From contig NZ_VFIY01000005.1 in the NCBI RefSeq assembly GCF_006385175.1, positions 69,501 through 133,500 on the forward strand: a DNA stretch of 64,000 bases. Direction: 5' to 3'. The stretch comes from Emcibacter nanhaiensis. GTDB taxonomy: Bacteria; Pseudomonadota; Alphaproteobacteria; Sphingomonadales; Emcibacteraceae. The stretch's first letter is position 1; the number at the start of each line of letters is the position of its first letter. Position numbers and translations under genes: made by a program. The notes under the pieces are model-generated. The model did not search any database. It had not been told where the DNA came from and saw only the letters and a program-made list of their open reading frames with translations. Positions 30,131 through 31,486 of this stretch are shown here, piece after piece.

Positions 30131-30158
30131 TGATCCGGGGTGGGTGCCGCATCGTACC
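30131..30158 (+). promoter_or_regulatory. Candidate ECF11 (RpoE/ChrR-type) autoregulatory promoter
   Basis: TGATCC at 30131-30136, a 16-base spacer and CGTACC at 30153-30158 agree with the TGATCC / CGTA-type promoter described for Rhodobacter RpoE-like ECF11 sigma factors. Transcription would begin about 30164-30166, on or beside the ATG at 30165. This implies that the sigma gene activates itself. Confidence 0.6.
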
Positions 30159-30164
30159 ACTGTT

Positions 30165-30851
30165 ATGACGTTAAGTGCTGTGGCAGAGATACCGAGCCAG
30201 CTTCTGGCACGTCGCCCCGGGGCAAAAAATCCACCCGTCAAGCGAAGGGACAAAATTTTCCCGCTGGAGAAAAAAGCCATTACCGGGGACCGGGATCAGG
30301 AGGAAGGAGCCAGACTGCTGGAGCGGATTGCGACCCATCGCGACCGCGACGCCTTTGTCTGCCTGTATGAGCTGTTCGCTCCGCGGCTGAAGAGTTTCCT
30401 CATGGGCCGCAAGCTCGATGAACAGGCCGCGGAAGACCTGCTGCAGGAGGTCATGCTCAAGATCTGGCGCAAGGCCGGCAGCTATAACGCGGCGAAAGCC
30501 CGGGTCTCTACCTGGATCTTTACCGTGGCCCGCAACAGCCACATCGACAAAATCAGGCGGCAGAAAGTGATTGAGCTCGATGCAGACGATCATCTGCCGC
30601 AGATGGTTGACGATAATGAAACCGATGAACTGGTGGCCGCCGGCCAGACCGCGGACGCGGTGCGGCAGGCCATAGACAGTCTCCGGCCCGAACTGAGCGA
30701 GGTGATTTCCAAGGCCTTCCTGGAGGAAATGTCCCATACCGAAGTCGCCGAGGCGCTGGGCCTGCCGCTGGGGACGGTGAAATCGAGGATCCGGCTGGCG
30801 GTCAGCAAATTGAGACAGTCGCTTGGGGAACACAGAGAGACGATAATATGA
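30165..30851 (+). CDS. ECF RNA polymerase sigma factor, RpoE/ECF11-like
   Basis: A 228-residue ECF sigma factor with only sigma-2 and sigma-4. Sigma-2 includes FVCLYELFAPRLKSFL, AAEDLLQEVMLKIWRKA and WIFTVARNSHIDKIRR; sigma-4 has LSEVISKAFLEEMSHTEVAE and LPLGTVKSRIRLAVSKLR. In Rhodobacter this group drives the singlet-oxygen response. The ChrR-like anti-sigma gene overlaps it by 4 bases. The start is uncertain: no Shine-Dalgarno precedes the ATG at 30165, but the predicted promoter would make a leaderless mRNA there. That gives about 39 extra N-terminal residues relative to Rhodobacter RpoE. A GTG at 30180 is the only other close canonical start. Confidence 0.85.
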   Translation: MTLSAVAEIPSQLLARRPGAKNPPVKRRDKIFPLEKKAITGDRDQEEGARLLERIATHRDRDAFVCLYELFAPRLKSFLMGRKLDEQAAEDLLQEVMLKIWRKAGSYNAAKARVSTWIFTVARNSHIDKIRRQKVIELDADDHLPQMVDDNETDELVAAGQTADAVRQAIDSLRPELSEVISKAFLEEMSHTEVAEALGLPLGTVKSRIRLAVSKLRQSLGEHRETII

Positions 30852-31486
30852 GTAACGCTCTGGTTACAGACGAATGGATTCTGTCCTATGCGGCCGGCGG
30901 CCTTGATCAGGGGCACGCCCTGCTGGTTGCCACCCAGGCCGCCATGCGTCCGGAAGTCCGCCGCAAGGTCAGTGAAGCCGAGGCGGTCGGCGGCGCCCTG
31001 CTGGAGACATCTGCAACAATGCCGGTGAGTGACGGCCTGCTGGATAAAATCCTCTCCCGGCTGCCGGAAGCGGAACCGGAAGAACGTCCGCAGGTCAAGA
31101 TTACCGGCTTGCCGGCGCCCCTGGCCGATTATCTCGGGTGCGGGCTCGAGGATCTTGACTGGCGTTTCATGGGGCCGGGCCTGAAAAATGTCCGGCTCTG
31201 GACCGGGCCCCGTGGCGAGCGGCTGTGGCTGCTGCGCGCCACGGGCGGGATCACCATTCCCGAGCATGGCCACCGCGGCGTGGAGATGACCCTGGTGCTC
31301 CGCGGCCGTTACCACTGCGGCGCCGAGAGTTTCGGTCCGGGCGACATGGACCTGGCCGATGACGATAAAATCCATCAGCCGGTAATTGATCCCGGCGAGG
31401 ATTGTATCTGCCTGGTCTTGACCGAAGCGCCGCTCCGGTTCAATTCCCTGATCGCCCGCATCGCCCAGCCGCTGATCGGGCTATAG
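30848..31486 (+). CDS. chrR: ChrR-family anti-sigma factor with degenerate zinc-binding domain
   Basis: A 212-residue homologue of Rhodobacter ChrR, alignable almost end to end. The C-terminal cupin keeps all metal ligands (His140, His142, Glu146 and His176, one less than the ChrR numbers I recall) and the DCICL and APLRFNS motifs. In the N-terminal anti-sigma domain the four zinc ligands His6, His31, Cys35 and Cys38 are replaced by Leu5, Gln30, Arg34 and Val37. In ChrR that zinc is needed to bind the sigma factor, so this protein must fold or act differently. It is translationally coupled to the sigma gene and should sequester it until a signal such as singlet oxygen or organic peroxide arrives. 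Confidence 0.88.
   Translation: MSNALVTDEWILSYAAGGLDQGHALLVATQAAMRPEVRRKVSEAEAVGGALLETSATMPVSDGLLDKILSRLPEAEPEERPQVKITGLPAPLADYLGCGLEDLDWRFMGPGLKNVRLWTGPRGERLWLLRATGGITIPEHGHRGVEMTLVLRGRYHCGAESFGPGDMDLADDDKIHQPVIDPGEDCICLVLTEAPLRFNSLIARIAQPLIGL

Follow-up and report, generated by a model that had tools for sequence, protein, structure and literature searches.

A ChrR-family anti-sigma factor of Emcibacter nanhaiensis without the zinc ligands of its anti-sigma domain

The sigma/anti-sigma operon and its ligand positions

The window analysed here, a stretch of 64,000 nucleotides from Emcibacter nanhaiensis, contains an ECF sigma factor gene followed by a chrR homologue, which is the only chrR in this genome (Table 1). 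The frame of chrR is intact, and its start overlaps the stop codon of the sigma gene as ATGA. For the sigma gene product the best PDB match is R. sphaeroides sigmaE (2q1z_A, 1.1e-31). The whole ChrR protein scores 162.6 bits against the ChrR family model TIGR02451 (cut-off 124.5), and phmmer aligns its residues 6–201 with residues 7–202 of R. sphaeroides ChrR (2z2s_B) at E = 5.7e-45. The alignment has two gaps of a single residue each, in agreement with the nearly gap-free match described in the initial annotation. The score against NF051881, the equivalog model for ChrR of the R. sphaeroides type, remained below its cut-off (140.9 vs 300 bits). A Pfam search of the protein returned Cupin_7 at 38 bits and no match to an anti-sigma domain (ASD). 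Based on its whole-protein score, its H/H/E/H cupin ligands and its ECF sigma partner gene, we assign the product of 212 amino acids as a full-length ChrR-family anti-sigma factor.

ChrR-type proteins are generally regarded as requiring two zinc atoms. The zinc motif of ASDs (ZAS) has the form H/C-x24/25-H-x3-C-x2-C (PMC6432622), and the window ASD carries LQRV at these four columns. Thus, the proposed replacement of His6, His31, Cys35 and Cys38 by Leu5, Gln30, Arg34 and Val37 is borne out by the phmmer register and by the codons. An alignment accident does not account for it because the same four columns are HHCC in 111 of the 148 class-sample proteins described below. A sequencing or assembly error has a negligible chance of being responsible, as it would require four separate codons to be wrong in an otherwise clean frame, and relatives likewise lack the site. 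The ASD contains no cysteine and a single histidine (His23), which makes another zinc site built from these residues not likely. The cupin ligands are kept, as the initial annotation stated, yet positions 140, 142, 146 and 176 follow the numbering of the window protein and not that of R. sphaeroides ChrR, where the ligands are H141, H143, E147 and H177 (PMC6852236).

Table 1. Positions in the window of the operon, its predicted promoter and the ligand codons of chrR
Feature	Position	Strand	Details and basis
Predicted ECF11-type promoter TGATCC-N16-CGTA of the sigma/anti-sigma operon	30131..30156	+	pattern search
ECF sigma factor gene (rpoE/sigmaE homologue, 228 aa from the presumed start)	30165..30851	+	Pfam sigma-70 r2 and r4
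chrR homologue	30848..31486	+	212 aa; TIGR02451 match, Cupin_7, AlphaFold model, Foldseek
Anti-sigma domain, residues 1–75, without zinc ligands	30848..31072	+	alignment, AlphaFold model
Leu5 codon CTG, at ChrR His6	30860..30862	+	codon read and alignment
Gln30 codon CAG, at ChrR His31	30935..30937	+	codon read and alignment
Arg34 codon CGT, at ChrR Cys35	30947..30949	+	codon read and alignment
Val37 codon GTC, at ChrR Cys38	30956..30958	+	codon read and alignment
Cupin-like domain with H140/H142/E146/H176 quartet and C186-x-C188 pair	31103..31447	+	phmmer, Pfam, alignment

Zinc-less ChrR proteins in the Alphaproteobacteria

An even sample of 385 genomes of the class Alphaproteobacteria comprised 151 genomes with a ChrR match at E 1e-15; 148 ChrR rows from 140 genomes were compared, and 10 of the 151 matching genomes were left out. 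All four ASD ligands (HHCC) are present in 111 proteins, three in none, two in 6, one in 12 and none in 19. The zinc site is thus absent from 37 of the 148 proteins, and the lack of any protein with exactly three ligands is what would be expected if the four ligands were retained or lost together. The resulting 25% probably underestimates the true share, since choosing proteins by their TIGR02451 score is likely to enrich for HHCC and 10 genomes were left out. The loss in the window is therefore not the singular event that the initial annotation implied, dozens of relatives being without the site. It had been named there as a refutation that many close relatives might lack the ligands and still bind zinc by other residues; many do lack them, and nothing suggests such binding. 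An HxxxCxxC motif was found nowhere in the ASD of the non-HHCC rows among 214 rows, and the mean number of ASD cysteines is about 0.5 in zinc-less proteins against 2.45 otherwise.

In these 214 rows, which comprise all those collected and over-represent relatives of the window protein, four, three, two, one and no ligands occur in 131, 0, 13, 40 and 30 cases, respectively. Five rows counted as lost should be removed because they are not true ChrRs (HHDH cupins from loci L055–L057; none is present in the class sample), which leaves 25 ligand-free rows, 209 rows in total and about 21 losses. Their N-terminus, which resembles RskA in its motif, had no ASD family match in Pfam. The cupin quartet is found in every row that includes its columns, as HHEH or, in these five rows, as HHDH. 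Parsimony on a quick cupin-only tree called for at least 21 changes of the zinc-site label, or 22 losses if regain is disallowed, compared with an average of 70 changes for shuffled labels. Since that tree is weak, a number of about twenty losses is to be taken as a rough estimate, with several of the lost clades being well supported.

Among the Pseudomonadota sampled, zinc-less ChrRs were seen only in the Alphaproteobacteria (37/148 vs 0/47 without HxxxCxxC). All 47 ChrRs from outside the class keep HxxxCxxC, and 46 of them are HHCC, the first ligand of the remaining one being poorly aligned; the difference between 47/47 and 111/148 corresponds to a Fisher p of 2e-5, uncorrected for kinship. 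Eleven plasmid-borne ChrRs, picked from two match lists in order to find a zinc-less protein that has already been named and studied, were all HHCC.

The nearest relatives of the window protein are ChrRs of the same order (L002–L014, L016 and others) that have likewise lost the zinc site. A total of 25 rows, consisting of 14 same-family or same-order matches and others from a further search, show the pattern hydrophobic-His-His-Leu (xHHL) at the four ligand columns. The first position is mostly Leu, Ile or Met and occasionally H, R or T. Whereas the window protein has Gln in the His31 column and Arg in the Cys35 column, and its genome lacks DUF1365, the xHHL proteins have His at both columns and are mostly encoded beside DUF1365. 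This His pair is invariant (25/25) and might either bind a metal or simply contribute to packing.

With the ligand columns removed, the xHHL rows group without the window protein in two trees (96/95 and 93/88). Window and xHHL proteins form one group against seven HHCC/HHSS rows (100/99) in a tree that is limited to rows with an accompanying sigma gene and from which 11 long or zinc-less loci were taken out; when these 11 loci are kept in, the tree gives the window protein no firm position. These topologies identify the window protein as a sister lineage of the xHHL rows and not as their descendant. A derivation of LQRV from LHHL by three single-base steps was rejected because the window protein falls outside the group of 25 xHHL rows in the trees. 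The simplest history would be one loss on the common stem of both lineages, and Gln30 and Arg34 would then be marks of the window lineage, the His pair one of the sister clade. Median identity of the window protein to the xHHL rows is 41% in the ASD vs 59% in the cupin.

Promoter, candidate regulon and the DUF1365 marker

The TGATCC/CGTA motif is present with equal spacing upstream of the sigma genes of relatives, and its form in the window equals that of the PSPTO_1043 sites of P. syringae (PMC5507510). If translation of the sigma gene starts at the ATG located 8 nt after CGTA, a start that we deduce from promoter spacing, the product has 228 amino acids and the mRNA of the operon is probably leaderless. 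Of the 118 loci with such a promoter before the sigma frame (215 loci examined), 58 show an ATG located 8 or 9 nt after CGTA. The layout of positions 30131–30165 is repeated at G000:C15:317921 (L119/L252). By group, the promoter precedes the sigma gene in 22/25 xHHL, 35/46 HHCC and 9/17 other loci, counts that are restricted to loci whose upstream sequence spans 1000 nt or more and were obtained with a distance filter that missed the window's own promoter. A second site, TGATCC-N17-CGTA, lies inside the sigma gene, 172–175 nt before the chrR start, and is conserved within one genus (L010, L043, L045, L047, L049–L051 and L054); it may be mere coding sequence or an internal chrR promoter.

Genome-wide, near-perfect matches to TGATCC-N15..19-CGTA were found at 29 sites, most of them inside coding frames, and the pattern is noisy as a regulon predictor; the 2 sites obtained with a reversed-pattern control are not a fair background for this number. 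Only the sigma gene and msrP combine the N16 spacing with an ATG 8 nt after CGTA, and five other matches lead into frames of at most 76 amino acids. The msrP product exceeds the cut-off of its family (474 vs 207 bits). MsrP functions in methionine sulfoxide repair, and judging by the usual layout of the operon, we take the following ORF to be msrQ.

DUF1365 presumably corresponds to RSP_1090, and on that basis we used it as a marker of the furan-fatty-acid core regulon, which is common in ECF11 systems and not strictly defining for them. A search with PF07103 (DUF1365) had no match in the window genome. In the sample, DUF1365 is present in 31 of 33 genomes with a zinc-less ChrR, in 101 of 107 with an HHCC protein and in 47 of 234 without ChrR. 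The first two groups do not differ (Fisher p = 1.0), and the idea that the furan pathway was lost together with the ASD site was rejected on these counts. Since DUF1365 is kept in most zinc-less genomes, the singlet-oxygen-type pathway has not disappeared along with the ASD zinc; the window genome, without DUF1365, is the exception. Distances read by hand for the 33 genomes place DUF1365 at most 5 kb from the zinc-less gene in at least 17 of them; in 9 it is distant, in 2 absent and in 5 without a listed position. Among 60 relatives, all 14 xHHL genomes encode DUF1365, with 13 having it at a distance of at most 5 kb.

Proposed function of an anti-sigma domain without zinc ligands

An AlphaFold model of the window ChrR has a mean pLDDT of 81.8, with residues 11–50 at 89–95, and its top Foldseek match is 2q1z_B (TMq 0.73). 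Computed together with 15 relatives, it predicts ASD helices at residues 8–15, 21–33, 35–54 and 64–71; the alignment used is small (16 rows, most of them HHCC) and may have drawn the prediction towards the fold already known. The helix motifs SYAAGGL, VAT and AVGG are kept in the window ASD. Both the His6 and the Cys38 columns are aliphatic in the window protein and in most xHHL rows, and position 34 in the Cys35 column is predicted to lie immediately ahead of helix III. When the xHHL clade is set aside, the Cys35 column of the zinc-less rows holds Asn, Asp or Ser in 39 of 58 cases vs a background of 14.6% (35 of 53 after removal of the five RskA-like rows, uncorrected for kinship). This excess is suggestive of a helix N-cap. 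The Cys38 column of such rows is most often Ala, Ser or Leu.

We propose, with a probability of roughly 0.7, that the window protein is a functional ChrR-type anti-sigma factor whose ASD folds and clamps the sigma factor without zinc and whose cupin receives the signal. The observed steps are the missing ASD ligands, the kept cupin ligands, the kept sigma gene with its autoregulatory-type promoter, and the recurrence of the loss. According to Donohue's review, ASD bundles are held by zinc, as in ChrR, or by protein contacts, as in RseA, and the response to singlet oxygen requires the cupin (PMC6852236). A metal-free ASD is probable in structural terms, and sensing by the cupin only is likely. 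The initial annotation had presented a metal-free fold and cupin-only regulation as alternatives; the evidence favours both together, in a recurrent variant that keeps its sigma factor, promoter and neighbourhood. In the proposed mechanism ordinary packing would take the place of the zinc knuckle, Leu5 and Val37 occupying the positions from which His6 and Cys38 contacted the metal. Pro35-Glu36 would stand at the start of helix III, and in many other zinc-less relatives Asn, Asp or Ser in place of Cys35 would cap this helix. The metal-free ASD would still inhibit the sigma factor, and the cupin alone would trigger its release. The inducer may be singlet oxygen, an organic hydroperoxide or a related oxidant; for the window genome this step is the least certain one because DUF1365 is missing and the only other strong promoter match is located before msrP.

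In R. sphaeroides, ASD zinc is required for sigma inhibition (PMC6852236), so its loss in the window could instead mean that inhibition was lost as well. The ASD would then be decayed or weakened, ChrR would inhibit only weakly or no longer, and the sigma factor would be controlled mainly by transcription. The faster divergence of the window ASD, which is less like its relatives than the cupin, also fits relaxed constraint, and the missing furan marker points in the same direction. However, the frame, the ATGA coupling and the helix motifs are intact, the four-helix model is confident, and zinc-less ChrRs persist over many lineages with an unchanged cupin quartet, all of which makes decay an unlikely explanation.

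It is easier to envisage, though still tentative, that a metal-free ASD is combined with a changed signal, the system having been rewired from singlet oxygen and furan lipids to another oxidant, with MsrP-dependent repair as output. This possibility does not conflict with what our favoured explanation says about structure. A change of signal is suggested by the absence of DUF1365 from the window genome, as opposed to its presence in all 14 xHHL genomes among the 60 relatives, and by the promoter layout that is shared only by the sigma gene and msrP. On the other hand, in a genome that is 98.7% complete and split into 19 contigs one gene can be missing, and the promoter search took in near-perfect sites only. 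Metal binding by the ASD through other residues would find a precedent in the His pair of the sister clade if that pair holds a metal, but the residue content of the window ASD and the low cysteine number of zinc-less ASDs in general render it very improbable.

By extension, ASD zinc might be only structural and have been shed about twenty times in the Alphaproteobacteria, with the cupin metal as the indispensable sensor; we consider this generalization nearly an even bet. Two views of ChrR are in competition. Chabert (2019) proposed oxidation of the ASD zinc site, with unfolding of the domain, as the singlet-oxygen trigger and noted that no data rule out oxidation of the zinc cysteines (PMC6432622), while the other view rests on the need for the cupin and regards the ASD zinc as having no established role (PMC6852236). 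In a review from 2022 the two zinc cysteines are still the defining feature of ChrR (PMC8999054). Naturally occurring ChrRs that lack ASD zinc but have an intact cupin and the customary gene neighbours offer a direct test of the trigger and a comparison that was previously missing from this question. A singlet-oxygen response preserved in such proteins would mean that oxidation of the ASD zinc site is not required; if the zinc is only structural, singlet-oxygen sensing would not work by oxidation of these cysteines in any member of the family, including those that have them. Zinc-less ChrRs would also represent redox-insensitive ASD parts with which anti-sigma domain folding can be compared with and without metal.

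R. sphaeroides ChrR (PDB 2Z2S, 2Q1Z; ECF11) shares with the window protein the two-domain architecture, the near gap-free alignment, the cupin quartet, the operon with a sigma factor and the ECF11-type promoter; by contrast, it has the HHCC zinc site needed for sigma inhibition. RseA of E. coli and RskA of M. tuberculosis are membrane proteins that are not known to carry a cupin sensor. Like the ASD proposed here, these zinc-free class I factors have a helical sigma-binding domain that relies on packing instead of zinc (PMC6852236, PMC7406223), although they belong to other ASD groups, AS02 and AS19-1 (PMC7406223). Sigma binding by RsiW of B. subtilis is likewise independent of zinc (PMC7406223), yet RsiW still has the zinc motif whereas the window ChrR lacks the ligands themselves. 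About 28% of soluble class I ASDs are without a zinc motif, and some ASD groups are mixed in this respect, AS27 and AS19-1 being named examples (PMC7406223). Zinc-free ASDs are thus known in general. In the accessible parts of the literature searched, we found no description of zinc-less ChrR/ECF11 proteins or of a recurrence of the loss inside ChrR, which is confined here to one class. The window ChrR appears as a real and well-defined variant with a probably metal-free ASD and a metal cupin that is not unique to its genome.

Three loci, L055 (G074:C6), L056 (G070:C1) and L057 (G105:C224), are tandem arrays in which two short ChrR-type cupin proteins, mostly HHDH and with the presumably RskA-like N-terminus, precede another ChrR that is zinc-less. 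A search immediately upstream of this second ChrR, with L055 as the locus examined closely, revealed no sigma gene.
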